Below are positions 10,086 through 49,290 of a stretch of DNA of 64,000 nucleotides, one piece after another; positions within the stretch are counted from its first letter, which is position 1, and every line of letters starts with the position of its first letter. A model generated the notes under the pieces. That model did not search any database, was not told the origin of the DNA, and was given only the letters and a program-made list of their open reading frames with translations. The stretch comes from Thelephora terrestris (lineage: Eukaryota > Basidiomycota > Agaricomycetes > Thelephorales > Thelephoraceae). Position numbers and translations under genes: made by a program. The DNA is taken from assembly GCA_015956445.1 (NCBI GenBank), contig WIUZ02000013.1:186001-250000 (forward strand), written 5' to 3'.

Positions 10086-11457
10086 TCATTCTGGGAGTTC
10101 GAAATACGATCCTCTTTTTGTTTCATTGGGGCGTTCGGGAGGTGGTCCCGCAATGCGCTGAACCCAAGAAAGCCCCCTAAACCAGTACCACGTCTTCCCA
10201 AGGAGCTGTGTCACCTGAATAAGCGGTGGGACAGCAACAAACAACGCGAAGACCTGAGAGAACGTCAGCTTTCTCGCCCGCCGCACATAGAGCCGAACAC
10301 ACCTGGCCAAAACTGAGAGAGAAAGCGTTGTCCTGTGTACCGTAAGTGCAGAGCTCCACGACAGCGATCCAATATCCCATCGGGAATGCGACGACGGAGA
10401 TAAATTGGATTAATGGGTAGTAATATCCAACCGTTCTCCTAGATCCCTATTCAACGTGGACACTTGGAAGAGGAGCGAAAGCAACTGACCAAACTTTAAC
10501 GAAGCGGGGGCGGTATGGTTCGCCCGGCGGCCAGATCTCCTCCCTCTTCCGTACAATGGCCATGATCCAAGCGGCGATTATGGTAGCGAGTGGGACCGCG
10601 AAGATGATGACTGGGTATACCACCTGATATAGTACGGCCCAGTCCCAGAGGTATTGGAAAGGGATGGTGAGGTAGAAACCCTCAATTGCCGTGCGACCCT
10701 TGCAGGAAGCTTGGGCGAAATTTCTCACACCTTTTGGAAGGTAGGTGTAGATGAAGATAGCCAACCACGCGAGTCCGGAAAACAGAACGACAGATCGTCT
10801 GAAGTAATTTTCGCGCCCTAGCAGGTTCTCCAACCGGTGGTGAGTTGACCAAAACGAACGTATGGAATACCCGACGAAATAGATTGTGATGGGAGAGAGG
10901 ACCAATGCGAGGACGACCAAGGCATGGAATCGGGTAAGGTCTTGTCGGATGATGGCGATGAGGCATGTGAGCAACAGAGAATATATGGTGAGGACCTGCG
11001 ACCAGAAAGCCTCTTTTACTCTTCTAGGTGAATAAAAAACAAGCACAGCTGGCGTCGATTAGCGTTGGTACATAAAGACGGCGTCCAACATACCAACGCA
11101 AAAAGTTGTAACGTAGTCTACACAACGGGGAGAGATCAGAGAGTTGAAGTACAAGTATCCGATGGCACTTACTCGCGATCCGGACCAGCGGGCCTGAATA
11201 AAATAATTCCAGTGAGAAAAGGGAGGATAATGGGTAGATGTGAGAGTCATACCTGCAATTTCGGGGTTTGGACAAAAGCCGAACGGACAGTCATCGTCGC
11301 TGGGGGGTTTGGTGCAGTAGGCAGCAACATACCTCGCGATCTCGGTGGTGAGATTGAGGCAATTCACCATGGGTTTTGAGACCCCGTGGCTGTAAAATGC
11401 ATCGGTGAAGTCCGACTGGAAGCATCCAGTGGTATCCGTAGGAGGTGGGGACGACAT
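10086..11457 (-). CDS. M1: seven-transmembrane protein of the array family
   Basis: Member of the uncharacterised 7TM family of this window; predicted 370 aa. Exons by splice consensus and phase: 11,457-11,253; 11,193-11,173; 11,117-11,094; 11,048-10,490; 10,438-10,303; 10,253-10,086. The N-terminus carries the family motif CPFGFCPNPEIAG. The later exons hold the TM segments, the inner-loop motif SPITIYFVGYSIRSFW and an invariant cysteine in the TM4-TM5 loop (FAQASC). The start is the ATG aligned with the family. Oddities: it has one intron more than the other members (after PEIA), it is the most diverged copy, and it points away from M2. The C-terminal tail (about 20 aa longer than in M3, M5 and M6) is polar. 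Function unknown; a plasma-membrane receptor or transporter role is only inference. Confidence 0.8.
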
Positions 11458-12104
11458 GCCACTGAGGGGAAGGATGGCGATTCGTGGCGGGAGGTATGCC
11501 GAGTTAAAGGCGGGCAAAATGCCAAGACAACTATGCTGGTTTCGTTATGGTGCGTGATGCACGGATGTATCGCTTCTATTGCTCTAATTTTGGCCATCAT
11601 ACTGATGTGGTGATGTGGCTGTGGCGGCAACGGAAATTGGTGAAATGGGTACGAAGGCGGAAGAATGACGGATACTGCTCCGATGCTGGCAGGCAGGCAA
11701 TGCGGCCTCGGTCGATTTGGAGCTGCTGGCCGGGGAAGAGCCTTGGAGGGCGACGACGGTTTCCTTCTCCAAAAGACGACAGCACCGGTTGGCAATGGCA
11801 TGCGGGATCAATCGATCATTAATCATTCCACATAACTGCTTGAGGTGAACCCTTTCGACTTGCAAGCGTGATGATACTTATATCGGTAGGTTCTTGGCAT
11901 ACCGCTCAAGGGTGACGATGGGGTTTTATTAGGGTATGATTTTCGATTCAATTCCGTGCCGACTGGAAATCAGCGAGTTGCCGCCTCCCGTCATATCAAA
12001 GTTTGAGCATCATCAATCTCCTGAAGCGCTGATGCCCGAGGTGACAAATACTTAACTACTGGACTCGCTCGCCTTTCTCTGCACTTTACTGCCCGTCACG
12101 CGTC
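11458..12104. promoter_or_regulatory. Divergent promoter region between M1 and M2
   Basis: About 650 bp separate the start codons of the head-to-head genes M1 and M2, so both promoters must lie here. An ACAAATACTTAA patch about 60 bp before the M2 start may serve as its TATA-like element. The TGGATAAATAG box of M3-M6 is not present. No other gene is visible in the interval. Confidence 0.5.
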
Positions 12105-13807
12105 ATGGCGTCCAACGACGAGCTTCCGCTCACATACCCTCCAGACATAGACTGCCTCGCGGGTTTGTTTGACCCCACCTACTACTACAAAGATCCCAAC
12201 TGCTCCATAACGGACGACGCGGTGAACTTTTTGAACCTCACCGGAACACAGTACAAAAGTTTGAGGCAGTTCATAACTGTGTATTGTTTGAATCCCCCAT
12301 CGGAAGACATCTGCCCGTTCGGTTTTTGTCCCAACCCTGATATCGCTGGTCCGTTGGTCAGGTTCTCGAGTGAGTCAGGTCAAACTTTCTACGATTTTTA
12401 GCTGTGTTGCTGATAGTTCGCCCCAGACTATGTCACTGGATTTTGTCTCAGTAAGCCATTGGTTTCTCCAGATACCTTGTGCACGGCGGAAGGCTTACCT
12501 CCGGCTGCCAGTAATCCTCATCTTCTATTTGCCAAAGCGTGTCAAAGAGGCCTATTGGGCTCAGATGCTCATTACATACTCCCTCCTGCTCACCTGTGGA
12601 GTATCCCTCATCCGAGGAGAGCTGACCCGATATCACGCCATCGTCCTCATCTCCATCGTATGCTCGCCCGTCAACGTCTACTTCACAGGCTACTCTATCC
12701 GAGCCTTCTGGGGCACCCATCGCCTCGACGCTGTGCTCGGCAAGAAGCATTATTTGCGGCGGGCGGTGGTGTTCTTCTCCGTCGCCGTCTGGATCGCAAT
12801 CCTTGTCTATGCTTACCTCCCACACCATTACACCAAGTTTGCTCAGGACTCGTGTCGTTGGGACTCCGTAGCGGAGGCCTTTTTCCTCGGGTCTCCGCTC
12901 ATTTTTCCCATCGCCCTAGCAAGTGCCAAGTTGTACAGGGACCTGGTTGCATTCCTCGCGCTTCCCGTCATCGTCATCGTCGCGTGGGTTTTCGCCATCG
13001 TGCGGAAGAGGAAGGAGATCTGGCCTCCTGGTGAACCGTACAGGCCGAGGTTTGGCAGGGTCTGGTGAGTCCATCGCCGTGGGTTCGATACCAGGAGTGT
13101 GCTGAAGCTATCCCGAAGGAGGAAAATATCAACGGATTACATGTTCCTCCAATTTTTGTCCGTTATCGCGACTCCCACAGCGTACTGGGTCGCGTATGTC
13201 GAAATTGGTGTCTTCAACCAGTGGGACATCGACTACAGCTTGACGTTCGGTCAAGTAAGTCTCGCTCGTATCTCCCAATCGGCCTGATCCTGATACGCCC
13301 ATCTGACCAGCTGCTCGTCGTGTTCTCGACTGTACCTCCGATGATCGAAGTAGGCCGTCTGGCCCCTAGGCTGTGGCGTTGGTTCATCAACATTCACTGG
13401 GTCCGGTACATAACCGGACGTCGAGCCTCCAGAGTCCCCGGTCCAGAAGAAATGGGGTCCCCTGCCGCCAAGTTCGTTGACGAAAAGGAAGGAACGGTCG
13501 ACGACGAGTCCGGTTTCGTGGACGAACTACCTCTCCTGGGCAAAACACAGGAAGCCGACGATTCGGAAGAAATCACCGAGCATGGTCAGTCCCAACTTTC
13601 GCATCCTTATCTCTCTTTTTCTTCTACACGAATCTGCAATTTCGCCCTTGTGGGATCGAGGCTGTCCTGAAAAAGGATTCCCGCTTGCCCTCCTTTTTTT
13701 TTTTTTTTTTGCGAACAAGAGCATCATATCTGATACGCCGTTTACACTGTCATGACACAGATACTCTACTGGATGGCCATAGTGCTGCGCTGGATACCAA
13801 GTACTAA
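12105..13807 (+). CDS. M2: seven-transmembrane protein with acidic C-terminal tail
   Basis: Family member, about 432 aa if the last intron is used. Exons: 12,105-12,369; 12,427-12,450 (24-nt micro-exon); 12,512-13,064; 13,119-13,254; 13,311-13,584; 13,761-13,807. The last splice is uncertain; reading through instead gives a stop at 13,668-13,670. It has the N-terminal YPPDIDC, NCS glycosylation site and CPFGFCPNPDIAG, then seven predicted membrane segments with the loop motif FAQDSC between TM4 and TM5. Unlike M3, M5 and M6, the C-terminus extends by some 60-80 residues that are acidic and Ser/Glu/Asp-rich, probably cytoplasmic. It is divergent from M1 and lacks the minisatellite leader. A run of 18 T occurs in the possible last intron. 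Confidence 0.8.
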
Positions 13808-15960: not shown

Positions 15961-16429
15961 GCGATATCTTGAAAATGGAGGAGCCACCTTAACCTCGAAT
16001 CTAGAGACACCCATTAGACCAGGAACGTTGAAGGAGAGGAAGGAGTACGCACAGTTGTTCTCCGGCCTGGGTCAATGCTGCAGGATCCATCTAGGATGGT
16101 CAACCTTTACATACGCTGCATGCTTCCAAGCCTCACGGAAGTCCTACCTTGACTATACGGTGTACGAGGAAGGAAGTCGCGGGGCGCTGTACTGTCTGTT
16201 GGTGCACTCCGTGGGGAGGGTATGGCAGAAGGAATGGGGGTCATAGCCTTAAGTGGGCGGAATGTCCATTAGTTAAGGGGCCCCGTTGACTAAACCCTAA
16301 TTTCGATCTACAGCCAGACTCACGTCAATCTTTACGTGTGGATGTTGTCTGTCACCGGTCGCTCTCGCCACCGGTCTCGAATCATTACGTGCTTCGGTGC
16401 TGATAACATCCAAGTGCCGTCGTGATAAA

Positions 16430-18405
16430 CAATTTGCTCTTGTGTCATGACTTGGGCCTTGACCGTCTCAGTTCCAGGTTACTTTCTAGGGAAGGAGAAG
16501 ACGCGTGGCAAAGGGAGTTCGTTGGTAGTCACTAAGTATCCTAGGGAAAGCAGAAAGTCTCAGAGGGTCCCCTGAATTTTCCCCGGGAGAATATAGAGCA
16601 CGAACCGCACTCATGATAATTCGCAGGCAGTAAACCGCATCTTCTGCGATCGAAGGGGGTGGGCGATGGCCTCACAAACACCGGGATTGGATAGAAGACA
16701 AGTCGCAGCGCCCCCGTTCTTGGTTTGTATTCTGGAGGTCGTGCTATTTTGGTGTCCATCCACACCGTTCGCCTTGAGTAACCAAATTACCAGCTCGCGA
16801 ATCCGGAGTGACTGATCGTCGCAGGCGGAGGAAGTAAAGTGCATCCTTTTCGCAATCAGTGCGCTTCCGACGACCATCTTAAGACGCGCGCGGCGCAACC
16901 TGACCGATTTGAGGTGAAGTTGGAGGGAGAAGGGTAAACACACGCTAGACTCATCGCCAGTTCAAGTGGCATGACGGAGGTGTCTTTGTGTCTCGTTGTG
17001 GTGTCAGGGAGAAGGGCAGGGGCTCGCTGCGTGAACTTGAATGTGGGGAATTGAAACAAATCTCGGCTGCTGGGCTTCGCGACATTCTGTGCGGTGCCTG
17101 GTGGTGTGGAGCCTATGAGTGGCATCGTGCTGGGAAGTAGAAGACGGGAACGGATCACCGACGTCGATCAGTACCTGTCACTTCGTGATGTCACCCACGG
17201 AACGCACACAACAATGTCGGCGGAAACAACAAGGTGTCCCTTTGAGGCTTCCCGAGCTTCAGTCGCGCCTCTCCTGTGAGCCGTTCTGCGTTGCAAATCC
17301 GCCTGTCGAGCAACCGCGTTGGGTAAGATGTTCGAACGGAGAGCCTTGGGGCGCGCCCTAAACTCACTATCCGTCAAAGTGTTGGGCACCAGTTTTACAG
17401 CAACCGGACTGGGACGGAAGGCACCCGACTCAAGGCACCCCTTTGTTTGAAGTTCTCAGCGTTCCGGGTCCTGGCTTGGGTTCGAGAGACCTTACCAGTT
17501 TGGCGTCCGATTAAATCATTCGCCCTTGATCCATTTTCGCCTCGGTGATCTCATCACCCGTTCCCAAATCTTCGCGCATCCAGGGAGAACCGGCCGATGG
17601 GAGCGAGGAGAATTCTATGTGACGCTGTCTTTGAATATTTGTTGGCATTTGGACTTATGCAAACCGCACGGTATTAGGGATTTAGCCGTAAAGGCCTCAG
17701 TCCCGGCCCCACGGTGTTTGACCGCCTGGTACCGGCATCCAAACAGCTCTGTCCTTGGATGACGTATCCAGTCGCGTGCGACTTCGCGGAGCGCAAGGAG
17801 AAGCGGATCTCGTGAGTCCTGTGAACCCAGAATTGTCGAACCCAGAGTCTGCCAAGAGGGTGGAACCCCCAAGTTTCCATTCACGAATAGGGTATCGTCA
17901 TTTGACAACATTCCCAAACTGGCAAAAAACCTCGTTGAAGCAGAACGAAGGTAGGCTCCTGGGCTTCATGACATTGAGTATGATATCGCAAAACGGTCCT
18001 CGAACGTGTCGTAGATGGAGGTAACAGAGTACTGTCAGAGAAAAGGTCATCGACAGTGCGAATCTTGGGAACCAGCAAAATCAAAGATATCCTAGATTCG
18101 CGGTGTCCCAAGGACCCGCTGGCCCGGAAGCATCAGGACAACAGGTACTAGTAAGAGCCCACTAAGGCACGGTGGGGAGAATCTGTAAATGAGGAAACGG
18201 AGGAAGGAGGGGCGTCTAAATTAGCAGCGGCTATGGCTTGGGCGAGAGGGTGCGATACTGCCTTCCGGGGAAAATAAAAGTGTCCATGAGCTGGCGTGGG
18301 TAAGAGTGACCTCGCCGAAAAGATGACCCTTTTGTTTCACCTCGAAGGGATTGGTGAGGGGAATAGTGGACGCTCCGAACTCCTTGAGGAACGAGGTAGA
18401 GTCGA
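16430..18405 (+). repeat. Inverted duplication, left arm
   Basis: This stretch reappears in reverse complement at 26,155-28,087. Matching anchors include GTGTCATGACTTGGGCCTTGACCG (16,444 region, against 28,04x) and CTCCTTGAGGAACGAGG (18,38x, against 26,16x). The arms differ by point changes and small indels, so the duplication is not brand new. The right end of this arm includes the sequence just upstream of intact EAF7. I see no supported gene inside; short open frames (for example 16,856-17,158 minus) are only partly kept in the other arm. Confidence 0.8.
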
Positions 18406-18503
18406 GGTGTGGGCTGTCCGAAGAGTTGATCAACAACGTTAACCTGATGATCTTGAAGCGCTCGCTTCCCCATCCACCGCGCTCGCGCAAGCGACGAACA
18501 ACG

Positions 18504-19447
18504 ATGTCTTCCGGCTCGAAGGATTTCCTCGACACCGCAGAAGGCGAAGTCTCCCTCTTCCGTTCCATAATGCGCACCAGACCCGTCGGCATTCATCGCC
18601 ACGTCCACATTTTGGCCATACACAACTCGATATACCGTGACACTGGGTCTAAGGTGCCCATGAAAGATATTTGGGCCAAGCTTGGCAGGATGTACGATTT
18701 AGATGCTCTCGAAAATGCCGTGAGTTCTCTCCTGTGGTGGTGTTCTACGATCCCCAGCTCCTGCATCCACATTGGTCCTGTCGTGACTGACACGGTTTTG
18801 TTCCCGCACGTGTAGGAGCTCAACGGCGATGATCCCAACTCCGGCTCCAACTCCCCATCTTCGGACGAAAACCTCCAAGTGCACCCAAGCTTCAAAGAAG
18901 AATTTAACCCATCCGCTCACGACGAAAGTTACGAATCCTACTTCGCGGCTCGACGCGTCAGATCCAGCTCAGCCACTCCAACACCTTCACCTTCACCTCC
19001 GCCAGGTCCCACTAGGACCGGGAGCGCACCGAATTCCAGCATACGAGGGAGCGATGTGGGGAAGAAGCAGAGGCATAAAGAGAAACTCAAGTTGGCTGGG
19101 TTGGACGATAGCGACAGCAGCGCTTTGACCCAAAGTGGGGATGAAGTGGAGGAGAGCTCTCCTCCCCTGCAGGATCAACCGAAACCGGGAACAGAGGGTG
19201 ATACGGAAGTGGGGGAGGATGTGGAAATGGCGGAACGTTCATCGCCTGGTGAGCCTTGATCTCCACCGCTGTGACCATTTGTGTCGGCCGCGTCGCTTTG
19301 CTCATGCGGCATGTCTTCCACACAGAACCTGTGCCAGTCGTGAAACAGCCGAAAGCCCAGAAGACTGCTAAGAAAGGTGCTTCTGCTCGTACTCGCTCAA
19401 GTGTAGCCGCTGCATTGTCTAGACCGACCAAGAAACGAAAGCGGTAG
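18504..19447 (+). CDS. EAF7: EAF7 homologue (NuA4 histone acetyltransferase subunit), intact copy A
   Basis: Predicted 256 aa from exons 18,504-18,719, 18,816-19,248 and 19,326-19,447, all with GT-AG borders and matching phase. Exon 1 carries the EAF7/MRGBP core: EGEVSLFRSIMRTRPVGIHR, IYRDTGSKVPMKDIWAKLG and YDLDALE. Exon 2 has the PSFKEEF segment, a Pro/Ser-rich linker and an acidic stretch with SALTQSGDE. Exon 3 ends in a basic nuclear-localisation tail (RPTKKRKR). EAF7 is known as a nuclear subunit of the NuA4 acetyltransferase complex. The ATG immediately before SSGSKDF gives the expected length. Oddity: exons 2-3 and the downstream spacer are nearly identical to pseudogene copy C, while exon 1 is canonical, so the gene is a mosaic at the edge of the array. 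Confidence 0.85.
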
Positions 19448-19809
19448 AGTGACAGGTGTGGCGCACTTGGACCGTTCGCCGCGCGTTGGTTCTACGAGCC
19501 ACGACCTACCCGTGCTTTTGTGAGGATGTCCGACGAGTCTTGGGTTCGCAGCGCTGTGAACGGGAACACGCCATCGTCCGTACTCCATGTGAGTGACCGT
19601 GAAATTTGATCTCCCTCACAAACGTCGTCACGGCGAGCGTTCTGCTGATCATCACCGTGCGACATGCCAGGTTGCTTTGTAATTGTACTGGTCTCCCTGC
19701 AATAATATTGACCCTGCCCCGAGAAGCTGATTTAAGTGCGGTGTAGAGCCTGAAGCCTGAAGCTCCCTGGATCGCAAGTGCTGACCGATGGAATTGATGG
19801 TCAACGTGG

Positions 19810-21235
19810 ATTCCCGTGGCTATCTCAGCCATAACATTCAATAAGCCATGTAAAACCTGGCTCGCCCAACAGAGAGGCTTCTTCTCCCCCTACCCTCATG
19901 CTGTTTCGGTCTTGCGGTTCAATATGGCCCGGACAGAGTGGATTTGGGGTGCAAACCGGCCGGTGATGGATATGTCCCTGACCGGTGACCAGCAAAACAT
20001 ACCGCCACGCTCCAGTCAATGAGAGACGTTCAATCACTTCGGGTGCATCCTTTGCACGTTCATTGGAAACGGACAAGGCGAAGGTGGATGTCGCCGGTCG
20101 TCGACCCCGATTCGGTAGTGTCACCTCGGTGTTATCGATCGTTCCATGCAGCTTACCGCGCGGAAAATGCTGGCGATACGCAGCAACGGAGGAGGAAGGG
20201 GCACCTGGAGACCTTGAGTTTCACCAGAACAAAGGGGCAGACCGCGTGTGGGTGAGATGAATCCCGCCACGTTCGGAAGAAATCCACAAAATTGTGAGAC
20301 AGATGGCCTTTGTTAAGTGAGATGATAACTTGGAGTGTACACACCCGGGATCATTGTAAGTGATGCGAGAAACAGTTGGAAATATGCCGCCCAACCCTGA
20401 CCCCACAAATCTTCTGAATAGTCGTCTGTTGCTCGTGATAAACTTGTTATTCAACGGCCATTGTATGTGTGCGGGCGAGCCGCGGTCCCTGAGACATTTT
20501 TGAAGGAACAGGGTGCTGATTCGTCGAGCTAAAGCTTGTCCCGTCGTCGCAGGATCTTGTGCGTAAGCTTTCGTTCCTTGGAACGGCTGAGTACAAAGTT
20601 CCTAACGAGTCGATAAGGGTTGTCATCTTTGTTGCCAACCGGGCCGGTGAATATGTCAAATATTTTCCACTGGTCCCGTTTTATCTGACTGCGTGATCTG
20701 GTCCCTTGTACAGCCAATCGTTGGCTTTCTCCTTCGTTATGTCCCGTTTCCCTGTGATCTGCGGAGGCTTTCCTCCTGCGTAGAGGTTCTTAGGCACGAT
20801 AGCGGGCCATGCCAGGGGTCAGCGGTAGTGATTATCCGTCAATATAAACTTGTACATGTCAGCGGACGCAAGCGGGCACCTCAGCCTCATAGCTGCCCAT
20901 GTTGGTCTTAGTTTATTTGAAAAATGTCGTCGGACCGATTCATCTACTGGGGGAGGTTGATCAGAACAGTCGCTAAGATGTAAGTTCACCTGATCTGTCT
21001 GCTTCGTCCGTCACGTTACTATTCACCAAGCAACAGCTCGGAAACCAAATCCTTTGCATTGCGAGCGACGACTATGTTTGTGTTCTTCTGAAGGAAGACG
21101 ATCCGGACAGTCGCTGGGATACTGGCTCACATTTTTTGCAAGCTTCACCCGCCAGGCAACTCAATGGCTTGGATACTGAATCCTTTCCATTGCGGGCGAG
21201 TGCTATGTTCGTGCTCTCTCAGAGGTGATGTCGGC
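19810..21235. repeat. Spacer unit R1
   Basis: First tandem copy of the spacer unit. It is slightly more diverged from R2 than R2 is from the copy at 31.9-33.4 kb, judged by eye over the 20,400-20,700 versus 21,840-22,130 stretch. Confidence 0.65.
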
Positions 21236-21239
21236 TTGA

Positions 21240-22650
21240 ATGTATCTCCTTGCCATGGCTAACTCGGTCATAACCCATGGAAAACCTGGCTGGCTCAACG
21301 GAGAAGCTTCTTTTCCCTTCTACCCTCATGCCGCTTCGGTCTTGCGGTTCAATATGGCCCGGACAGAGTGGGTTCGGGGTGCAAACCGGCCGGTGATGGA
21401 TATGTCCCTGACCGGTGACCAACAAAACATACCGCCACGCTCCAGTCAATGAGAGACGTTCAATCACTTCGGGTGCATCCTTTGCACGTTCATTGGAAAC
21501 GGACAAGGCGAAGGTGGATGTCGCCAGTCGTCGACCCCGATTCGGTAGTATCACCTCGGTGTTATCGATCGTTCCATGCAGCTTACCGCGCGGAAAATGC
21601 TGGCGATACGCAGCAACGGAGGAGGAAGGGGCACCTGGAGACCTTGAGTTTCACCAGAACAAAGGGGCAGACCGCGTGTGGGTGAGATGAATCCCGCCAC
21701 GTTCGGAAGAAATCCACAAAATTGTGAGACAGATGGCCTTTGTGAAGCGAGATGACAACTTGAAGGGTGTACACCCGGTAACATTGTAAGTGATGCGAGA
21801 AACAGCTGGAAATATGCCGCCCAACCCTGACCCCACACATCCCCCGAATTGTCGTCTGTTGCTCGTGATGCACTTGTTATTCGACGGCCATTGTATGTGT
21901 GCGCACGAGCCGCGGTCCCTGAGACATTTTTGGAGGAACAGCGTGCTGCCAAACGCTTGCGCCATCGGCCGCATCTTACACGTAAGCTTTCTTTCCTTGG
22001 AACGGCTGAGTACAAATTTCCTAACGAGTCGATAAGGGTTGTCATCTTCCTTGCCCACCGGGCATATATGTCAAACATTTGCCGCAGTCCTGGTCCCGTT
22101 TTATCTGAACGTACGTGATGTGGTCCCTTGTACATCCGATCTTTGGCTGTCTCCTTCGCTATGTCCCGTTTCCCTGTAATCCGCGCAGGTTTTTCTCCTG
22201 CGTGGAGGCACGGTGGCGGGCCATACCACGCGTCAGCGGTAGTGATTATCTGTCAATTTAAATTTTTCCATGTCAGCGGAGGCAAGCGGGGGACGTTGAT
22301 CAGAACAGCCGCTGGGATGCAAGCTCACCTGTATCTGTCAGCTTCGTTCGCCACGTTACTGATCTCCAAGCAGCGGCTCGGAAACAGAATACTTGGCATT
22401 GCGAGCGACGACTTTGTTTTTGTTCCTTTGAGGGGAGACGATGAGAACAGTCGCTGGGACACTGATTCACCTGTTTCTGCCAGCTTCACGGGCCACGCTA
22501 CTCAACGGCTTGGGTGCCGAATTCTTTCCGTTGCGGGCGAGTAGCGTGTTCGTGCTCTCTCAGAGGTGATGTCAGTTTGAATGTATCTCCGTAAAATGTG
22601 CCGCGCCCTTTCAGCAATGTAGTGGCGGTGAAGATCAAGGGTAAGTCCAG
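21240..22650. repeat. Spacer unit R2
   Basis: Second tandem copy. From about 21,320 to 22,330 it is almost base-for-base the same as 32,060-33,060, which suggests recent duplication or gene conversion between blocks. Confidence 0.7.
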
Positions 22651-23300: not shown

Positions 23301-23516
23301 ATCACCTTGGCTTTCTCTTCACCTACCCCGCCTTGCTCTTTACCTGCCACACAACATTCTTTTCACTTACTCCTCGACTCTCTTTTCACTTACTCCTCGA
23401 CTCTCTTTTCACTTACTCCTCGACTCTCTTTTCACTTACTCCTCGACTCTCTCTTCACCTACTCCTCGACTCTCTCTTCACCTACCCCTCGACTCTCTCT
23501 TCACCTACCCCTCGAC
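23300..23516 (+). repeat. Pyrimidine-rich 23-bp minisatellite leader of M3
   Basis: Tandem units of 23 bp of the type CTCTTTTCACTTACTCCTCG + ACT run without break up to the ATG at 23,517. About seven units are near-perfect and two or three more are degenerate at the left. The repeat lies between the TATA-like box and the start codon, so it should form most of the 5' leader. Confidence 0.85.
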
Positions 23517-24830
23517 ATGGCATACAACCAACTCACTTACCCTCCAGACATCGATTGTTTCACTAATGGTGATTATTCGGGCCTGTTGAGCAACTTCACC
23601 ATGAACAACTGTTCCATCACGAACAACATGGTGAAATTTTTGAACCTTACCGGGCAAAATTACAAGCCGTACTTGAACGCCTATTGTACATCCCCCCCGT
23701 CAAATGACAACTGTCCATTCGGGTTCTGCCCCAATTCTGATATTGCTGGCCTTTGGGTGAGAATTGCAAGTGAGTTGACTCCGAGTTCTCTGCGGCCGCG
23801 TTGCTGATAGTTTGCAAGATTACATCACTGGCTTTTGTATTGGTAAGCCGCCTTTGTGTGCACGTCTGATAAGGCAGCTTGGTTTACCTCTGCTTCTCAG
23901 CAATCATCATCTTCTATGCCCCAGACCGTATCAAAGAAGCATTCTGGTCGCAGGTACTCCTCACGTACTCCCTCCTGCTCACCTGCGGGTTATCGCTTCT
24001 TAAACATCAGCTGACCCGGTTCCACTCCATCGTCCTCCTCTGCATTGTATGCTCGCCCGGCAATGTCTATTTCGTAGGCTATGCTATCCGAGCCTTCTGG
24101 GGTACCCATCGTCTCGACGGAGTGCTCGGGAGGAAGCGATATGTGCGGCGGGCGATGGTATTCTTCGCCCTTACCGTCTGGATCGCAATCCTCATCCATG
24201 CTTATCTCCCACTACAAGACACCAAGTTTGTTCAACAGTCATGTAGTGGAGCTACTATTGTGGAAGCCTTCTTTCTCTGGTCTCCTTTTGTTTTAGCATG
24301 GGATTCGGCGAAGGGGGGGTCAGAGGGGATTCTGTTCTTGTTTACTCTTCTCGCAATACCAATCCTCGTCACCTTCGCCTGGTTCGTTGCAATCATCCGA
24401 AGGAGACGCGAAATCTGGGATTCTAACCGGTCGTTCTGCGCAGGGCTTGGCGAGATCTGGTATGTTCAGCACCGAATGTTTAACATAGGTTTAGCTCATC
24501 GAAGTTGACCCGCAGGAGGACTATAGTAAAAAATTATCCATTCCTCCTATTCTGTTCAGCCGTCGTGATCCCCACGGCGTACTGGATTTTAACCATCGAG
24601 CTTGGGGTTTTTGAGGAGAACGACGAAATTTCCTCCTTGACTTTCAGCCAAGTAGGTCTTGTTATCATCCTATTTGTTCTTTCCTGACGCGTCTGATTGA
24701 TCAGGTGCTTGCTATGTTCGCGGCGGTACCCCCGGTGATCGAGGTTGTTCCCTTGGTTCCTAGACTATGGGAATGGGTGATCACCTTGTCTTGGCTCGGG
24801 CGGGTTGTCAGGCATTCGAAGACCTTCTAA
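23517..24830 (+). CDS. M3: seven-transmembrane protein of the array family
   Basis: Predicted 365 aa; reference copy for the family. Exons: 23,517-23,769; 23,819-23,842; 23,901-24,459; 24,516-24,651; 24,705-24,830. N-terminal region 1-78 has no clear signal peptide, three N-glycosylation sequons (NFT 26, NCS 31, NLT 43) and cysteines at 14, 32, 57, 66 and 71, ending in CPFGFCPNSDIAG. Predicted TM segments are about 79-100, 108-126, 134-154, 177-196, 235-258, 285-306 and 323-345. The loops 2-3 and 4-5 face the same side as the N-terminus; Cys207 in loop 4-5 is invariant in the family. Arg/Lys-rich loops (GRKRYVRR; IIRRRREIW) and the tail RVVRHSKTF suggest those parts are cytoplasmic. The frame is intact. 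Function unknown; receptor-like by topology only. Confidence 0.85.
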
Positions 24831-28645: not shown

Positions 28646-28649
28646 TCAC

Positions 28650-34022: not shown

Positions 34023-34029
34023 GTCACCT

Positions 34030-35725: not shown

Positions 35726-35873
35726 TTCCTATAATCGTATTTATTCTAACGTCCTATAATCGTATGTATTCTAGCGTCCTATAATCGTATTTATTCTAGC
35801 GTCCTATAATCGTATGTATTCTAGCGTCCTATAATCGTATTTATTCTAGCGTCCTGTAATCGTATTTCTTCAT
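35726..35873. repeat. 25-bp minisatellite downstream of M5
   Basis: Six tandem units of CGTCCTATAATCGTATKTAT + TCTAG. The corresponding place after M3, M4 and M6 has a single TCCTGTAATCGTA element, so this is a local amplification specific to the M5 block. Confidence 0.9.
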
Positions 35874-36062: not shown

Positions 36063-36985
36063 ATGCCGGAAAGTGTAAGATTCGCTGGCCCAGTGCACGT
36101 GCTGTTGGGGGATTTTCTACACCACTCCAGAGGCGGATTCTCCCTCTTCCATTCCATAATGCGCACCAGATCCGTCGGACTCACCAACATGTACATTTCA
36201 GCCGTACATGACTCCTTGTACCGTGATATGGGGTTTAAATCGTCTACGAAAGGCGTTTGGGCTAAGTTGGGCTGACTGGAATGCTCTCGAGAATTCCGTG
36301 AGTTTTCTCCCGCGGTGTTATTCTGCCATCCGCAGCTCATGTGTGGGATTGGCACGCCAACCGTGTTGGCGTGGTCGTGGCTGGCGAGTCCGTTCCTGAC
36401 TTCCCACGTTTTTGTCCCTGCACGTGTAGGAGCTCACCGGCGATGATCCCAACTCCGGCTCCAACTCCCCATCTTCCGACGAAAACCTCCAAACTTGAAC
36501 GAAGTATTCAACCCATCCGCTCACGACGAAATTTACGCATCCTAATCTGCGGCCCGACGCGTCAGATCCAGCTCAGCCACTCCAACACCTTCACCTTCAC
36601 CCCCGCCAGGTTCTAGTAGGACCGGGAGCGCACCAAATATCAGCATATGAGGGAGCGATGTGGGGAAGAAGCAGAAACATAAGGGACTCAAGTTGGCTGG
36701 GTTGGACGATAGCGATAGCCGCGCTTTGGCCCAGATTGGGGATGAAGCGGAAGAGAGTGTAGAAATGGCTGAACATTCATCGCCTGGTGAGCCTTGATTT
36801 GCATCGCCTGTCGGCCGCGTCGCTTTGTTCATGCGGCATATCTCCCACACAGAACCTGTGCCAGTCGCGAAACAACTGAAAACTCAGAAGACTGCCAAAA
36901 GAAGGTCCTTCTGCTCGTACTCGCTCAAATGTGGCCGCTGCATTGTCTGGACCGACAAAGAAACGAAAGCGGGCCTGTGTGGTGC
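36063..36985 (+). pseudogene. EAF7 pseudogene, copy D
   Basis: Exon 1 remnant reads GGFSLFHSIMRTRSVGLTNM and LYRDMGFKSSTKGVWAKLG, then stops because the end of exon 1 is deleted as in copy C. The original start region is replaced by flanking sequence. Exon 2 has an in-frame stop soon after SSDENLQT, an internal deletion that removes most of the acidic stretch, and small indels. Exon 3 is recognisable (PVAKQLKTQKTAK) but altered at the end. The copy is clearly dead. Confidence 0.75.
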
Positions 36986-37563: not shown

Positions 37564-40500
37564 TCAGCCTGCCATTTTGGCCCACCACTCCCTCGTCATA
37601 ACGTCTAGTCCACCAAGCCTTTCATCCTCTTCAAGTAGTTCTGGTACGTGTCCCTGCAAAAATGTGCTATCATCAAAGTCTCTAAGCAGCCGGATAGTGT
37701 CCCGCCCAGAGCTGCGCGAAAGAGCAACGTAAAGATTGAAGAGTGAAAGTCCAGACGTGGGAGGAGATGCGATGTCAACCACAACGTAAGGAATCGTCTG
37801 TCCCTGCGCGCGATAGTCGGTGAAGGCGTATGCTCCAGTGATCGGGAACTGGGTGCGGGTCACTGTCCGTGATTTCCCGCGAACACGGATTTGAGTTTTT
37901 GTGGAGACGCGCTGGATCGGGATTATCCCCTCGTCTAGACCTGGAAGAGCAGCTGCGCGTGTGCGAGAGAGCTTGACCAGGATGCATTCGGGCAGGTGCT
38001 TCAATGTGGTTACTGATCCTTCATCCAGAGGTGGTTCGTCGGGATTGAGGATGATATCGGCGATGATGCCGCGGGCTCCGTTTGTCACGTCCAAGTCGGT
38101 TTGTAGGTTATTTGTTACCATAACTTTCATCCCGATCGCCAAGTGAATAAACTCGGGGAGGCCCTTGTCGCGTCTCCGGCTTTTTTTGGGTAGGTTTGCA
38201 AGAGCATAGCGTTCTTCGAGAGTGAGCGATGACCCCTTAATTGTGTCGAGTGACGGACAAACAAATAGACGGGTCGTTGCGTCGCTACACTGTTTCTGCG
38301 CTGCGGCCTGATTCCACCGGATACGGACAGCATGGCGGGGAGTGATTAGAGATGCGTCGGCCCATGGATGCGTGGAGAAGTCGACGGCTTGGATGAGGGT
38401 GAGGGGAGGATCTGAGGAAGGGGGAGTGTTTGAGGGGCCCTGTGTCCGACTCTTGAGAAGCAGTGTCCTGAGCATTGTGAGGTGTCGTCGCTCCACCATT
38501 CCATAGCGAAGGTGATTGAGGAAATCCCTCCAGATGTGATCCGTAACACGCATCTGTTCTTTGAGGATAATGACTGTGGAGAACTCCTCATATATTTTCC
38601 GGCCGACTTGCGATGTGAGCTTGTCGTCTGTGCTGACCGGGTAGTATAACGACTCCCGTTTACCACAAGCCACGGGTGGGAACTGGTGCAGATCACCACA
38701 GAGGATAACATTGAGTCCACCAAAGGATGTCGCTTGTCGAAACCCTTGCGAACCCTCCATCCCGATCGAAATATTACGAGAGAGGGCGGCCAAGAAGCTT
38801 TTTGAGAGCATTGAGTATTCGTCGATGATTAAATACCGAATATTCCTCCAAAAATCCTGGAGCTTCTTCTTTGCAGCGTCGCTAACGTCGTCCTTTGAAC
38901 CCAAAGACATGGACCCGATGACATGAGTTGTTTTCCCGTCCACTAGTGATGCAGCTACACCAGTATAGGCGGCCTTCATGAGCATATGGCTCACTCCGCG
39001 CGCCGCAAATGCCTCGGTTATAGTTTGGATAACCCGTGACTTCCCAGTCCCTCCCTCTCCATAGAGAACCATACGAAGGGGAGGAACATCATTTCCGCGC
39101 AAGGTCTCACCGAGGTGCCAGGTCACGATATGGTAGGCGGTGAGCTGGTCGGGTTTTAAAAGGTCCAGATCCACCGCTGGCAGTGACTGTTCGGATGCAG
39201 CGGCTGATTGAAGCAGGATGGCAGCTGGGGTGTTGAGCAGGAGGTCGCCTGGAAGAGTCGAGCGTTCAATCGTGGGGATATCGGCGGTCTCGCTCCCAGT
39301 GGGGACCGGATTGGATGCCTTTGCTCTCTCGTCGACGGCGGATTGAAGGAGGTTGTGCCACATTGAAATACGTGCCAAATCGTCCTGGGTCGCATTGGAT
39401 GGGAACGCGTGTAGATCGATGGTCCAATTGCGCTGCTCGTTGTCAAAGATACCCAGGTGTCTTGCGAGTTCAATTGCCATATGTCCATGAAGCTCTTCGC
39501 GCAGGGAGACGCTCTCTGCCTTCAACAGTGCCAGGCCCTCCTCAGAGAACTCTTGCTGCTGAGAGACGTGATCAGTTCCCGACTCGTCATCCATGATCTG
39601 ATTATTGGGGGAAACTTGATAAGGAAGGGGACTTGTGATGTCTTTCTGTGCCGCAGACTCGCATTCGTGAAAGTATTGGATTCCAGACAGCGCGCGTCTT
39701 GCTCTCGGGGTGGCTGAGTGACGAAAATTTTCGAACGCTGCTGCCCAACTCTCGGTTGAAGGCTTGAGATCGCTCTCTAGGTTCCGCCATGGCTTCAGTA
39801 GTGTAAGCATGCATGCACAGTAGAAATCGTAAATCTCCTCGTCGTCATTTCGCGGAAACCACCTGCCAAGGAAATTCGGGAGGTTGCGGTGGCCTGGAGA
39901 ACGAATGACTCGGTGGACGGTCGCGGATTTTGGGTGGCCTGTCAGGTACTGTACACGAGTATTGCGTGGGCGGCCTGGCCCGCGTCGGACGTCTTCATTG
40001 AATAGCTCGGCTTCACGGTCAGCCTTTGTTATCTCTGTTTCATACGTGTCCACAAAGAAATCAAGAACGTTGTAGTCCTCTAATTCGGTCCCACGGTGTT
40101 GATAGTCGACAACTTGGGACTTGACAATCATGCTCCCTGAGCCAGAAAACTCCAATGTGACCACGGTGTCAGCCTGGGTATCGTTTAGTTTGCGCGTCTA
40201 AAACTGTGAGGTCAGCGTACCGTCTGAGCTTCAGTTTCGCCTTCCCTGGAATCAGGGGTCTTCTCTGAGTCAACTGCACTTCCAGGTGTTGGTGATACGG
40301 ACCTAACACATGAAGCGGATCAGCGAGGCTCACTACTATGGTGTGAGAAAGCCCAAATTACCTCACCCGCCCCGAGAGCTGAGGGAATGCAATATACAAT
40401 GCACTCATGAAAGACCCCCAGTAGATCGGCGAGTAAGTGTGTGAGCGAAAGACATCGCCCCACCCCATCAAGTAAGAGATGACCATCGGGCCCGCGATCT

Positions 40501-43465
40501 CTTGCTCTCGGTTGATCGAGTGAACAAGACGGAATAGGAGGAGACGCTGCTGATCCCGAACACTGTCGATGTATTCGGGTTTCGGATGTTCGAGGTGATA
40601 TGCATAGCCGTCAGCCATAACCGCAGACACATTGTAGTTCTTGCCTTGCTTCTTAGCCGCATAAGAAGTAACATAAAACGTGATATTCTTTGTGTCCGCT
40701 CCACTTGTTAGAAACTTCCCGTCATTGTTACACCGAGCATTGAGGAGAATAGACGGAACCCATGAGTTGATATAACCATGGAGTCGCTTGGGCCCCCATA
40801 GGCCTGTATCAGTGACGAAGTCGTTGTCGGACACCTGAAATGGGGCGCGCCGTTTGCACACCAATTGGTTATGCCGATCGTAGACCAAACAGCGTCGGGG
40901 TTTGCACGCGTGGACTTGTTCCATTCGAGCTAGTGCCAGCTCTGAGCGCCGCAGCTCGCCTTCATAGTCTTTGCAGTCAGGGTTCGGCGGTCGACTGTAG
41001 GACACTTCGTTGTTGTGGGGAAGCTGCGCAATCGATTCGGCAGACTCTAGGCCAGGAACATAGGCCCTGAAGTTCGCTTGGATGAATGCGATGATACGGT
41101 TTCGGAACTCCTCGGTTTTGAGTAGCGCGGCAATTTCTTCCGGAGAAGGAACTTTCTTGAGCCAGACGAGAAGGTGGAGGTGTAGTGTCCCTCGCCCTTG
41201 CGACTCGACGGTGCCGAAGTACGCAGCAACTTTTCCAAACACTCCCATCCCGCTTTTCACTTGGGCAGGTGTAACCTTCACCTGAAAGAGGGTTTCCAGG
41301 ATCGTTGTGATCATAAAGTGAAAAAACTTGGCGGCTGCGTAGGGATCATCAGCGATGTTTTTTGCCCTCTTTGCTTTATCGGGTCCAAGGGTGGCCATGA
41401 AATCATCCATGTTGATGTCCTCACCAGCGAAGATTTGAGCGATTGGATCATGGAGGTCAGAGGGGTTGATTGTAATCCAGAGTGAGGGTGGTCCCAAGAT
41501 CGTTGATGTTGACCAGATTTGACTTCGTAGGCGATACCGTGATTGATCTGTGCCTGAGACTCGAGCAGCAGTGGCGTAGACGTGCTTCTTGAGCACACTA
41601 ACCGCTTTGTCAGATATCGGGAGCCCACTTTCCTCCTCTGCTTTTGCTCGATTAAGCTTTTCAGCTGTGATTGCTGCGACGGTGTGAGCCTCTCGCTCGA
41701 AGGTGTGACGCTTCATTTGTATCCGGGCTGAGGTCAGAGCTTGTCGGCGTTGAGAAATACCGAAGGTGATAAAGGGGAATGTTTCGTGCTTGCGAAATCG
41801 TCGGTCACAATACTGAAGCGACCACCGGATGTGCTCGGCGAAGTCAAGCGGGACAGGTCGTCTACACTCAAGGCCACCTCGGCCGTAAGGATAGAGACAG
41901 GGGAACGCCTTCTCAAAGAAGTTGGGCTGATCCACCGGGCACTCTGCATCTCCAGTCTCCCGGGGAGGGAAGTCAGAAACTGGTTGACGCCCATGTCGCA
42001 CTGCATACCCCCCTTCGCGACCTTCTTTCCACAGGTTTGCAAGTCCCCATTTCATCAACTCGTTGGCCGTGACGTTGGAAAGGTCGCAATCGACAGATCC
42101 AGATATTTGCAGGGGAATCACGTCAGGAGAAGGTTCATCTAAACTTGGTTCAGCAATCCGATCGCATGAGCTGCAGGGTACCAGAGGAGTTCACATACCA
42201 TCAGCACAAGGAGGTGAGTTCGCAGTGTCTGCGTCCAGGTGAGGGCTGCCTGACTGATCTCCTATGAGAAATTCAGATCCGGCTTCCTGTGGGTCGTTCA
42301 ATTTAGATGACAAACCTATCTCATCGGTTCGGACATAGCCTGATGACTCTTGATCAATTAATCCTGTGTCGTTCGACTGTCGGATGACCCCAAGTATTTC
42401 ATCTGGCACATCGTCCTCAGGTAGTTGATCCAGTTGGCGTTGACTGATAACGATGTCACCATAGTACTTAGGATTGTTGGCCTTGAGCCAGGCGAGAGCC
42501 CTGGCGACGTGAAAGCGGCGAACCCGAAACGTTGAATGAATCCAATTTTTTGGAATGCGACCGATCCCGATATAGGTGATTGCGATCAGGGAGGAGAGAA
42601 CTGCGGGAGGGCGCGGCATCAATTGCCCCTCAACCATGGCTACCACTGCGCCTGCGTTAAGCTCGTAGGTGCTGACGTTGCCCCTCATGCCACGCTGTAA
42701 TCCATCTGCTGATCCAGCGCCAGACTTCGGGAACAACTTGAACACGTACACCCGTGGGTACAGGTGAGCAATCAGAAGTTGTTCTGGGAAAGTCAGCGTG
42801 CTTAGCTCGGCTGGGACTGCGCCAATCCACAGGTTGTTTGCCAGGGAAAATTTTGGAGGAAGCGATGGGGTCCTCTTCAAATCGCTTAAACATTCACGAC
42901 AGATATTTGCGATGGACCTGTCCTCCTGGCAGATAACCCCTTCTGGCGAGAGGAGCATCCCGTTGAAGAGGGTATGGTCAGGATGGGGTTGATGCGGCAC
43001 TAAGCGCGAGGCCGATGGGATATCCTCCAGGTCAACGGTTTCAACGCCATCAGACTGACGAGCCTTCTCGCGTGCACAGACGGCACACACCACATGCTCC
43101 AGGGCGGCGTTGGATGTTGCCTTGTAGAACTGGCGGTAGCAAGCCTTGAGGGTGGTATCAGAAGGAAGGTCCAGGAACTCGACGTCGTCTTCTGGCCCAT
43201 CGGTGTCCATCCGGGACGACTTCCTGCCTGTGTTTGGCTGTGGCTCGTCCCGTTTCCGCTTGCGGAGAGGAGGTCCAGAACTTGTGGAGGTTCTTGTGGC
43301 GAGTTTATCACGGAGATTCTTCTCAATCCCTGGGGTGAGGTTTCCAAGAATGAAACTTGTGAGAACGCTCTTCTTCCTTTGACATGGCGCAGGGACACTG
43401 AGCTCGTGAGTCGCTTCTAGGATATCCTTGATCCGTAACTTCGAGAGGAGGTCTGAGATGTTCAT
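37564..43465 (-). CDS. Helitron Rep/helicase (RepHel) transposase
   Basis: Exon 1 is 43,465-42,199; the intron uses GT at 42,198 and AG before 42,138; the second part runs to about 40,360; a third short part around 40,300-40,200 leads to 40,190-37,564. Part 1 carries a DUF6570-type domain (ANNLWIGAVPAELSTLT). Part 2 has the Rep nuclease: HUH motif in GTLHLHLLVWL (near residue 310 of that part) and the two-tyrosine motif YVTSYAAKK. Part 3 has a PIF1-type helicase: Walker A GEGGTGKS near residue 370, Walker B IIDEYSM, ILCGDLHQFPP, YRAQGQT and VALSRS. Together they form the RepHel protein that nicks and unwinds DNA in rolling-circle transposition. The join near 40,200 needs a very short (23 nt) intron or marks a break; I could not settle it. 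Confidence 0.85.
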
Positions 43466-43830
43466 TGGGGTGAACAGATCCTACCATGACTCCTTGATAA
43501 ATGAGTTTCGGGACAGAACGGCCCATCCGAGGGTGTTATCAGCTCATTCCCATCGCTTAGATTCCAAGACCGATTTGAAAAATTGCACTGTCTCACGCCT
43601 ATGAGAATGCAGAGGCTGTCAGTATGTTGTTCTTTCTTTGACGTAGTGGAGGGACAGTGAGCCAGTGAGCTGCGTTCAGCATCTTCCAAATCTGTGATCT
43701 GAAGACGATTAACTATTCATTAGGATGCTTAGACCCTACCACTATGTCCCACCAAACACTCTTTCGGGGTTTGACGGCTCACTCACGGCTCACCCGAGAG
43801 TTTTATCAGCTCGTTCCCATCGCTTACCAT
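43380..43830. repeat. Imperfect internal duplication at the RepHel 5' end
   Basis: The stretch around the RepHel start codon (about 43,380-43,560) has a diverged direct copy at about 43,635-43,830. Shared pieces include GGGACA(C/G)TGAGC, CTACCA, GAGTTT and AGCTC(A/G)TTCCCATCGCTTA. The second copy no longer codes and now makes up much of the intergenic region between the two divergent Helitron genes. Confidence 0.55.
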
Positions 43831-45442: not shown

Positions 45443-46200
45443 TTGTAGTACTCTCTGCAATAATATCGACCCTATCATGAGCAACTACTTCTTCAAGCAC
45501 ATTGTAGCGCCTGAGACTCGAAACTCAGCCATAACATCCAATAAGCCACGCAAACTCTGGCTCGTCCGACGCAGAGGCTTCTTTTATCGTCCAACCCCCT
45601 GCTGTTTGGGTCTTGCGGTTCAATGTGGCCTGGCTCAGTAACTGAATCCCTCGCAACAAGTTTTTTATCACCTTCAACCAAGATTGCGCGCGAGCCACGT
45701 CCCCAGCATAAGTCTCGTTCTCAGATTAATCCTCGAAAAACAACGACAACAGATCCCTGGCGGCAACGATTGTTTGCGACCCAAAGACCGAAATCGGGCG
45801 GGCAGAGTGAATCTGGGTGCAGACCGGCCAGAGCCGGGTACGGTCCTTCAGCCTTGAGGCCTGACCGGTGAGCAAGGAACAGTACCAATCATCAACGGGA
45901 CGGCTGAACCTAAAGTTCCTGACGAGTTGTATCGGGCGTCGTACATTTAACGGAGTCATTCTCAAGCTGGCATCACCTCTAAAAGAACACGAACATAGTT
46001 CTCGCTCGCAATGGAAAAGATTCGGTACCCAAGCCTTTGCTTGGAGATGAAAAACGTGGCTCACGAAGCCGACAGAAAAATTTCGACTAGCATCCCACTG
46101 GCGGCTGTTCTTATTTTCCTCCCTCAGTAGAAACACCGGCCCGACGATCCTCTCTCCCTCAAGTAAGTGGAATACGTGGCAGCCATGAGGCCAGAGCGCT
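45443..46200. repeat. Array spacer R4, right fragment
   Basis: Continues the interrupted spacer (TCTGCAATAATATCGACCCT; ACATCCAATAAGCCACGCAA). It then becomes a shortened and partly rearranged version of the unit, more diverged than R1-R3. It leads into the M6 upstream region (TTTTCGCTCCTGTTTAGG). No gene seen. Confidence 0.65.
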
Positions 46201-46702: not shown

Positions 46703-48034
46703 ATGGCGTCCAACCAAGTCTCGCCTTCCACTTACCCTCCAGACATCGATTGCTTCGCCGATGGGCCCTTTTGGGACCCGTCCAACTTCACCATGAACAA
46801 CTGTTCCATCACGAACAACATGGTGAACTTTTTGAACCTCACCGGGCAAAATTACAAGCCCTACTTGGCCGCCTATTGTCTATCCCCCCAGCCAAACGAC
46901 GACTGTCCGTTTGGGTTTTGCCCTAATCCTGATATCGCTGGCCTTTGGGTGAGAATTGCAAGTGAGTTGACTCAGAACTCCCTGTGGCCGGGTCGTTGAT
47001 AGTTTTCCAGACTACATTACCGGCTTTTGTGTCGGTAAGCTGCCTTTGTATGCATATGTGTTAAGACAGCCTGGTTTACCTCCGCTTCTCAGCACTCCTC
47101 ATTTTCTATGCGCCAGACCGTGTCAAAGACGCATTCTGGTCGCAGGTACTCCTCACATACTCCCTCCTGCTTACCTGCGGGATATCGCTCCTTCAAGGAC
47201 AGCTGACCCGGTTTCACTCCATCGTCCTCATCTCCATCGTATGCTCGCCCGTCAATGTTTATTTCACAGGCTACGCTATCCGAAGTTTCTGGAGTGTACA
47301 TCGTCTGGACAATGTACTCGGGAAGAGGAAGAATACCCGGCGGCTGATGGTGTTTCTCTCCGTTGCCATCTGGACCGCGGCCCTCATCTACGTTTACCTC
47401 CCACAACGTTTCACTAATTTTGCTCAAGACTCGTGTCGCGGAAGCTCTGCCGTGGAAGCCTTCTTTCTCGGGGCTCCTTTCGTTTACGCATGGGCTTTGA
47501 CGACACTGGGGCCAGCTGGGATCCTGATTCTGTTCATCTTTCTCGCGATCCCAATCCTCATCATATTCGCCTGGTTCGTCGCCATCATCCGAAGGAGACG
47601 CGAAATCTGGGCGTCGAGCGGCGTTTGCTGCGCAAGTTTTGGCAAGGTCTGGTAAGTTCACCGCTGAATGTTTCGCGACAATTCAGCGAATTAAAGTTGG
47701 CCCGTCCCGTAGGAGGCCGATAGTACACCATTATCCATTCCTCCGATTCTGTTCCGTCGTCGTGATCCCCACGGCGTACTGGATTGCAATCGTTGAACTT
47801 GGCATTTTTGGTGGGAACGACGAGACTTCCCCCTTGACGTTCAGTCAGGTAAGCCTTTCGAGCATCCTGTTCTTTCTCCCTTGATTTCTGAAGCATCTGG
47901 TCGATCAGGTACTCGCTATGTTCGCGACGGTACCCCCGATGATCGAAGTTGCTCGCTTGGTTCCTAGACTATGGAGGTGGTTGATCACCTTTGCGTGGCT
48001 CGGACGTGCTTTCGGGCGTTCAGGGGCATCATGA
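46703..48034 (+). CDS. M6: seven-transmembrane protein of the array family
   Basis: Predicted 367 aa. Exons: 46,703-46,961; 47,011-47,034; 47,093-47,651; 47,713-47,848; 47,909-48,034. Motifs: YPPDIDC, sequons NFT/NCS/NLT, CPFGFCPNPDIAG, SPVNVYFTGYAIRSFW, outer-loop cysteine in FAQDSC, IIRRRREIW and PPMIEVARLVPRLWRW. Exon lengths and phases equal those of M3 and M5 apart from exon 1, and the frame is intact. In the third inner loop and the TM3-TM4 loop it differs more from M3-M5 than they do from each other, so it is an older branch of the plus-strand group. Confidence 0.85.
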
Positions 48035-48430
48035 CCCTCACTGGGCAAGGTTCTCGCCATTCTCACGAAATCTCAGCCGTGGAGGTTCTTGCAATGGGAT
48101 GGCACTCCTCATATATGTACGAATAGTTGTAGTGTCCTGTAATCGTACTTAAGTATGCGTCATCTGCTATTCCATCGATACCCGACAATTGTTTTCTTTA
48201 GATGGGAGCTAGCATAATCGAAGGCACAGTTTGTGTCGGACGTCGCGCAGTCGCCAGTAACGCTATGATTTCTTGACCCACACGCTCCCGATGCCGGAAG
48301 GTCGTGAGATCGACCGGCGCGGGATTCGCCGGCCCAAAGCTTTCGGGAGTCCAACGCAACCTCGCTTCCCTATTTTCCCCATCCACATCTGTACTCCACC
48401 CGTGTCCAAAACGAGCAATGCACAACAATG
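48035..48430. other. Downstream flank of M6
   Basis: Diverged version of the block flank: CTCCTCATATATGTACGAATAG, TCCTGTAATCGTACTTAAG, TTTCTTGACCCACACGCTCC. No gene seen. Confidence 0.45.
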
Positions 48431-49290
48431 CCTTACAAGTCAGGGAATCTCTATAACACTACAGAGGCGAAGTCTGCCTCTTCCATTCCATAATGCGCAG
48501 CAGGCCCTTCGGACTCACCAACGCGTACATGCCTCGGAAAAACATAACTCGTCATACCTTGATAGAGGGCTTAAAATGCCCACGAAAGTCATCCGGGCTG
48601 ACTCGGTGCTCTCAAGAATTCCGTGAGTTTTTCCCCGCGGTGATTTCTGTGGGGTTTGGCCCGTGAACCGCGTTGGCGAAGTCGTGGCGGATGAGTCCAA
48701 TCCTGGGGCCTGACATGCGACAGGTGATCTCCCACGGTTTTGTTCCCGTACGCGCAGGAGGCCAACGGCGATTATCTCAAATCCGGCTCTAACTCCCCAT
48801 CTTCTGGCGGAACCCTCCAGATACATACACCTAAGTTTCAAAAAAGAACTCTAGCCGGTTTGTTCGCGACGAAAGCTACGGATACTACTTCGCGGCCCGA
48901 CGCGTCAGGTCCACCCCGGCCATTCCAACACCTTCACCTCCACTCCGCCAGGTCCCAGCACGTACGAGGGATCAATACAGGGAAGATGCAAATGAGTGTT
49001 CACCTCCCCCACAGACAATCGGGCCGGGAGCAGAAGCTGTGACGGGAGTGGGGGAGGAGAGGGGAGATGAGAATGGCGGAACGCGCGTCTCCTGGCAAGC
49101 TCCGCTTGCCACCCTTGTAACTATTTAGGTCAGCTGTGTCACTTTCCTAGCCCGGGATGTCTCTCACACGGAACCTGCGTCGCCCGTGAAACAGACGAAA
49201 GTTCAGGAAATGACAAAAAAGGCGCATCTGCCCGGATTCGCCCAAGCTTGGCCGCTGCGCCGTGTGGACAGACCAAGGAACGAAACCTGT
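48431..49290 (+). pseudogene. EAF7 pseudogene, copy E
   Basis: Most decayed EAF7 copy. Recognisable pieces are the exon 1 remnant around CATTCCATAATGCGCAGCAG with CCTTCGGACTCACCAACGCG (the diverged GLTN form), the exon 2 start (GGCGATTATCTCAAATCCGG and TCCCCATCTTCTGGCGGAAC), the RRVRS and Pro/Ser-rich region at 48,890-48,960, and exon 3 (GTGAAACAGACGAAAGTTCA). Many indels and stops interrupt it. It lies directly upstream of the RasGEF and marks the right edge of the array. Confidence 0.7.

Follow-up and report, generated by a model that had tools for sequence, protein, structure and literature searches.

A family of predicted seven-transmembrane genes in Thelephora terrestris, duplicated together with broken EAF7 copies and variable on its predicted outer face

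The stretch analysed here, the window, comprises 64,000 nucleotides of Thelephora terrestris contig WIUZ02000013.1 (assembly GCA_015956445.1), labelled C5 below (window, C5:186001-250000); the genome searched amounts to 40.6 Mb in 60 contigs. Within the window lie six genes of one family of predicted seven-transmembrane (7TM) proteins, M1 to M6, with a broken copy of EAF7, the gene of a NuA4 subunit, downstream of each of M3-M6. M1 (10086-11457, minus strand; 370 amino acids (aa), five introns) stands head-to-head with M2 (12105-13670; 445 aa, four introns), which like M3 (23517-24830; 365 aa), M4 (28887-30309; 400 aa), M5 (34218-35533; 365 aa) and M6 (46703-48034; 367 aa) lies on the plus strand. 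In the spliced models all six frames are open, every intron is GT-AG and the products measure 365-445 aa. M4 lacks the stop codon of M3 and M5, and read-through gives it an extra tail of 35 aa (30193-30309). An initial annotation of this DNA had ascribed identical intron phases to all six genes; this holds for M2-M6 (1,1,2,0), whereas M1 reads 1,1,1,2,0, its extra intron lying in the first exon.

What kind of protein do these genes encode? Hydropathy analysis gives nine hydrophobic spans, and the helix count is a reading of this profile rather than the output of a dedicated topology predictor. Seven of the nine spans would be helices with the N-terminus outside, because the loops with a strong positive charge, which in M6 have 7, 6 and 2 basic residues, then fall inside; the weaker span at M6 residues 217-235 may be an outer loop and that at 343-361 a C-terminal amphipathic helix. 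In an alignment of eight family members, used for invariant columns and profile scans, invariant cysteines occur in the N-terminus and the second outer loop, those of the N-terminal region, present in 8/8 members, being C17, C59, C68 and C73 (M6 numbering), and a CP.G.CPN..AG..VR segment precedes helix 1. The rhodopsin-type motifs D/ERY and NPxxY are absent from the invariant columns of this alignment; classes of G-protein-coupled receptors (GPCRs) other than the rhodopsin type are not known to carry them either.

M3-M6 are parts of a larger repeat that runs, in order, through upstream flank, gene, spacer and EAF7 pseudogene. Ungapped block identity reaches 86% over 3.4 kb between M3 and M4, 88% over 3.8 kb between M3 and M5, and 76% between M3 and M6; the duplication of the block is beyond chance. 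As initially annotated, EAF7 is broken in every copy but one. The intact gene (18504-19446, plus strand; 255 aa, two introns; PF07904, E 6.8e-15, 60.4 bits against a cut-off of 22) is the only place in the genome reported by a PF07904 search, which also missed the four known pseudogenes, so that further decayed copies may exist elsewhere. All four copies downstream of M3-M6 are disrupted, each on the plus strand: 25368-26293 after M3, where similarity stops at about 26123 with the start of an inverted segment; 30714-31652 after M4; 36099-36972 after M5, with frameshifts, two stops and a deletion; and 48426-49289 after M6, the most decayed of the four. The flanks had likewise been described as common to these blocks. 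This applies to the upstream DNA (5′ flank divergence K 0.12-0.27) but only in part to the far flank, which after M3 is replaced by the inverted segment and after M5 loses similarity at 37180, near a Helitron. Calling the array expanding overstates its recency, since introns of its copies differ by K 0.10-0.29.

Selection for the 7TM copies had originally been deduced from the asymmetry between kept 7TM genes and lost EAF7 copies. All four pseudogenes, however, have in common two deletions in exon 1, each of a single base and each shifting the frame. These shared lesions rule out a separate loss of each EAF7 copy, and the argument fails because it counts one inherited event four times. Given the common deletions, the EAF7 copy would have died once, before the block multiplied; alternatively, the lesions may have spread by conversion. 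When the intact gene is compared with the copy after M4 (18450-21250 versus 30660-33340), the first 400 bp, in and before exon 1, are 67-80% identical, whereas exon 2, exon 3 and a downstream segment, S, are 86-100% identical, a jump that likely reflects later gene conversion. A dead passenger gene of this type can provide the neighbouring copies with an internal neutral clock.

The proposed selection nevertheless finds support on other grounds. Pooled over the six pairs, differences at codon positions one to three amount to 0.188, 0.137 and 0.197 in M3-M6 and to 0.156, 0.193 and 0.212 in the EAF7 pseudogenes; the second position is slow in the former and not in the latter. Codon likelihoods, computed with our own implementation for M2-M6 and the family members C5p2 and C6b from outside the window, gave a dN/dS ratio (omega) of 0.698 on array branches against 0.258 on background branches (likelihood ratio test (LRT) against one ratio, 41.3). 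The array value lies below 1 (LRT 9.1, p=0.0025), as had been anticipated for the M genes, and constraint in the array is far weaker than in the related branches. In a neutral simulation, approximate in that M6 served as stand-in ancestor, branch lengths came from a one-omega fit and M3-M5 share branches, 4.4-8.5 stops were expected per gene at the fitted branch lengths (probability of no stop 0.0005-0.015) and 2.4-5.4 at halved lengths (0.006-0.085), while none was observed. Because the frames are stop-free against this simulation and omega is below 1, the hypothesis that M3-M6 together evolve neutrally is rejected and the retention of their frames by selection for a full-length protein is supported. 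Single copies could still be dying, as illustrated by M6, whose probability of having no stop is 0.08 at halved lengths.

This constraint is unevenly spread along the protein when codons are divided by the hydropathy-based topology into a predicted outer face and the rest (omega by NG86, pooled pairs). Across the six array pairs, which are not independent of each other, the outer face has an omega of 0.86, with 1.02 in the loops and 0.75 in the N-terminus; the rest has 0.43, and the helices alone 0.38. The contrast recurs outside the array. Between M1 and its copy at C5:142.7-144.1 kb, about 17.5 differences in the N-terminus change an amino acid; among the remaining codons of the 345 compared none does, although helices and inner loops carry 15 synonymous differences (Fisher 9e-6); one more amino-acid change falls in the C-terminal tail, outside the compared codons. 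For M2 and its copy at C5:144.7-146.3 kb, omega is 0.42 in the outer face and 0.13 in the rest (p=0.0015), and for M2 and C6b 0.35 and 0.24 (p=0.043). In raw divergence (one-sided, uncorrected p values), for M3/M4, M3/M5 and M4/M5 the outer-face codons lie above the introns, flanks and pseudogene (p 0.001, 0.002 and 0.007), while the remaining codons fall below neutral DNA in 4/6 pairs (p<0.05). In background branches, a partition model found that the N-terminus before CP.G.CPN outpaces the core (LRT 10.8). Together, the outward parts change about as fast as adjoining neutral DNA, and faster in some copies, while the core is more constant.

A fast outer face over a constrained core is the pattern expected of cell-surface sensors. 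From layout and evolution, we infer that M1-M6 may be N-outside 7TM receptors, presumably in the plasma membrane, that sense and signal with a held core and a ligand face that diversifies between copies, a reading that we rank first, with about an even chance. An M2-type gene would have become joined to an EAF7 copy that was already dead or died before the amplification; tandem duplication of the joined block, probably through unequal recombination, would then have been followed by conversion and inversion. The 7TM copies would have stayed under selection for a full-length protein with a constrained membrane core, while extracellular N-terminus and loops diversified and so varied the ligand-contacting face from copy to copy. 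Few surface receptors are known in fungi, compared with many unclassified 7TM proteins; a diversifying outer face over a held core yields a short list of candidate sensors that can be tested, and points to residues that might touch a ligand.

A branch-site test (our own implementation, not PAML) at first sight favours the receptor reading, with an LRT of 25.5 and an omega of 6.6 for 7% of codons; 11 of the 14 sites whose naive posterior exceeds 0.8 lie outside (p=0.003). The signal persists under each of three topologies and after removal of gapped columns; it is weaker when only columns farther than five from any gap are used (p=8e-4). Tested singly, the branches of M4, M5 and M6 are significant. 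Several observations weigh against the reading, however. The M3 branch gives no signal, a foreground chosen as control likewise gives p=0.015, and the signal vanishes without the 85 multi-difference codons, a removal that also drops the fastest ones. Differences are clustered in the neutral DNA of the blocks as well: multi-difference triplets, observed versus expected, are 0.25 versus 0.20 there, 0.31 versus 0.22 in the outer face and 0.25 versus 0.16 in the rest. To this add the non-independence of the pooled pairs, the three M6 pairs, in which the outer face (0.206, 0.203, 0.238) changes slightly less than neutral DNA (0.234, 0.238, 0.242), and the array N-terminus, which in the partition model is not significantly faster than the core. 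Loops outpace helices in many membrane proteins. No homology to known receptors was found in Pfam or the Protein Data Bank (PDB), and a structure model, restricted to exon 3 with the six window genes aligned, was unusable (pLDDT 47.8). Branch-site support for positive selection is thus fragile and we do not rely on it alone.

Because of this fragility, relaxed constraint after duplication, with redundant copies weakly kept and tolerant loops drifting, is the main rival. We regard it as a serious possibility, if a clearly lesser one than a receptor function: omega in the array is raised over the related branches, even in the helices; M4 has lost the stop of its neighbours; two family members elsewhere, C6a and C8, are interrupted; and the branch-site support is sensitive to clustered changes. 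Yet 4/4 array copies escaped stops and frameshifts where the simulation gives several, the outer face beats neutral DNA in 3/6 pairs, and M1 differs from its C5 copy in the N-terminus while the amino acids of the compared core are all the same, a contrast that does not fit whole-gene relaxation. Alternatively, the proteins could be transporters, channels or structural membrane proteins whose outer loops vary through cell-wall or cell contact rather than ligand sensing. The lack of receptor homology and of rhodopsin-type motifs would agree with this, and sequence fixes no signalling role; seven helices, an outside N-terminus and its cysteines form the usual receptor layout, however, and typical transporters and channels have more helices, as argued for SNB1 in PMC10949477, which makes this explanation unlikely. 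That the M copies are an unselected by-product of local segmental duplication, finally, is highly improbable: EAF7, S and the inverted segment were indeed co-duplicated, but the simulation, the omega below 1 and second codon positions that are slow in the M genes and not in the pseudogenes all speak against it.

Do these genes belong to a known family? None had been named initially, and this stands for Pfam, PDB and the open papers searched; nor did any known transporter or receptor family match in Pfam or PDB. Pfam scans, which covered M1, M2, M3, M6 and the eight aligned members (M4, C5p1 and C5p2 being unscanned), returned only scattered weak matches, the best being Sec20 (E 0.06, 1/8 members); DUF2070 came up in 5/8 members, at best with E 0.21 and 10 bits, the cut-off being 30. 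In a PDB sequence search M6 had no match at E<=10, and the family profile had two at chance level (E 3.8 and 5.3). The class 2 fungal GPCRs, STE3, resemble the M genes in their seven helices, a predicted feature in M, and in having several copies in this genome, but PF02076 is absent among the matches at E<=10 for the scanned proteins; as a control, the PF02076 search does find STE3 on C1, C15, C23 and C45, and none on C5. Snowball (snb1, DUF6533) is, like M, an unannotated basidiomycete membrane protein predicted to have 7TM and an outside N-terminus; PMC10949477 describes DUF6533 as basidiomycete-specific and snb1 as present in 1-3 copies in most Agaricomycetes. None of the scanned M proteins matches DUF6533 (PF20151), and none of its 43 reported genome places lies at an M locus. 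The same holds for DUF6534 (PF20152; three reported places), a large Agaricomycotina family of 7TM candidate GPCRs, put forward as receptors on computational grounds in PMC12842992. For the proteins scanned, membership in STE3, DUF6533 and DUF6534 was rejected. PMC12842992 also groups 141,666 fungal 7TM proteins from 1357 species, all unclassified, into 1969 clusters, among which the M family may fall. Scans for a viral or prokaryotic origin, based on two conserved peptides, gave 35 and 45 pattern matches and no relative by tblastn, and this origin was rejected. Our search of the open literature, beyond which lay most subscription papers and MycoCosm, found nothing on the M family.

The family extends beyond the window to at least 13 loci genome-wide, with searches from M6 and two distant members in agreement; this is a lower bound from which marginal matches on C58 (E 5e-4) and at C3:1223780 (E 0.02) were left out. 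Besides the six window genes, two more divergent pairs occur, one at C5:142.7-146.3 kb and one on C6, along with single loci on C8, which holds a further M2 copy, C34 and C3. Open models were obtained from 11 of the 13 loci, the tails of C5p2 and C6b being in a different frame from that of M2; a frameshift interrupts both C6a and C8, and in C8 the exon 4-5 region is disordered as well. In a tree of the 11 open proteins, M6 groups with M3/M4/M5 (100/100) inside an M2-like clade (82/88, not starred), with M1 apart. Head-to-head pairs of an M1-type and an M2-type gene occur at three places (10086-13670, C5:142.7-146.3 kb and C6:922-926 kb; 6/13 loci), the M1-type member on C6 being frameshifted. 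M1 and M2 share an upstream spacer of 647 bp (11458-12104), and that of the second C5 pair measures 656 bp. This arrangement hints at shared regulation or a paired protein. One might go further and see a new class of fungal surface recognition receptors, in which ancestral head-to-head 7TM paralogue pairs, possibly heteromers, carry a diversifying face and seed arrays of variants. We consider this doubtful; if true, fungi would have their own equivalent of clusters of chemoreceptors or of self/non-self receptors. Animal chemoreceptor genes form tandem 7TM arrays that undergo birth and death and change fast, an array habit similar to that of M, which has far fewer copies and no sequence relation that we found. 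Because diversifying 7TM arrays thus exist in animals, and unclassified 7TM families are common in fungi (PMC12842992), we do not call the M array a new kind of system.

The window holds further repeats. A 23-bp CT-rich tandem repeat precedes three array genes on the plus strand: at 23314-23516 it runs up to the M3 start codon (6.9 copies at 23358-23516), at 28649-28883 it lies just 5′ of M4 (10.2 copies) and at 34028-34204 it ends 13 bp 5′ of M5 (7.7 copies); by eye, one degenerate unit stands upstream of M6. Downstream of M5, a 25-bp unit is repeated six times (35722-35871). The S segment downstream of EAF7 (19841-20876) recurs at 21270-22290 and 32007-33026 and as a 93-bp piece at 45541-45633; with these three full copies and one piece, all in the window, and no other genome match reported, S is not supported as a dispersed transposon. 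The segment of about 2 kb upstream of EAF7 (16418-18397) has an inverted copy at 26156-28083 (91.6% ungapped). Ten open reading frames (ORFs) in spacer regions had no Pfam match, and no RNA family or tRNA was found in the window. The Helitron between the M5 and M6 blocks (37564-43480, minus strand) carries Pif1, Helitron_like_N and DUF6570. Retroelement-like ORFs at 4734-9883 are flanked by identical 164-bp direct repeats, with a further identical 117-bp repeat; the element looks DIRS-like by eye, and two scanned ORFs were without a Pfam match at 0.01. Finally, 2223-3589 resembles C5:138.4-139.8 kb in inverted orientation, at 73-82% identity.

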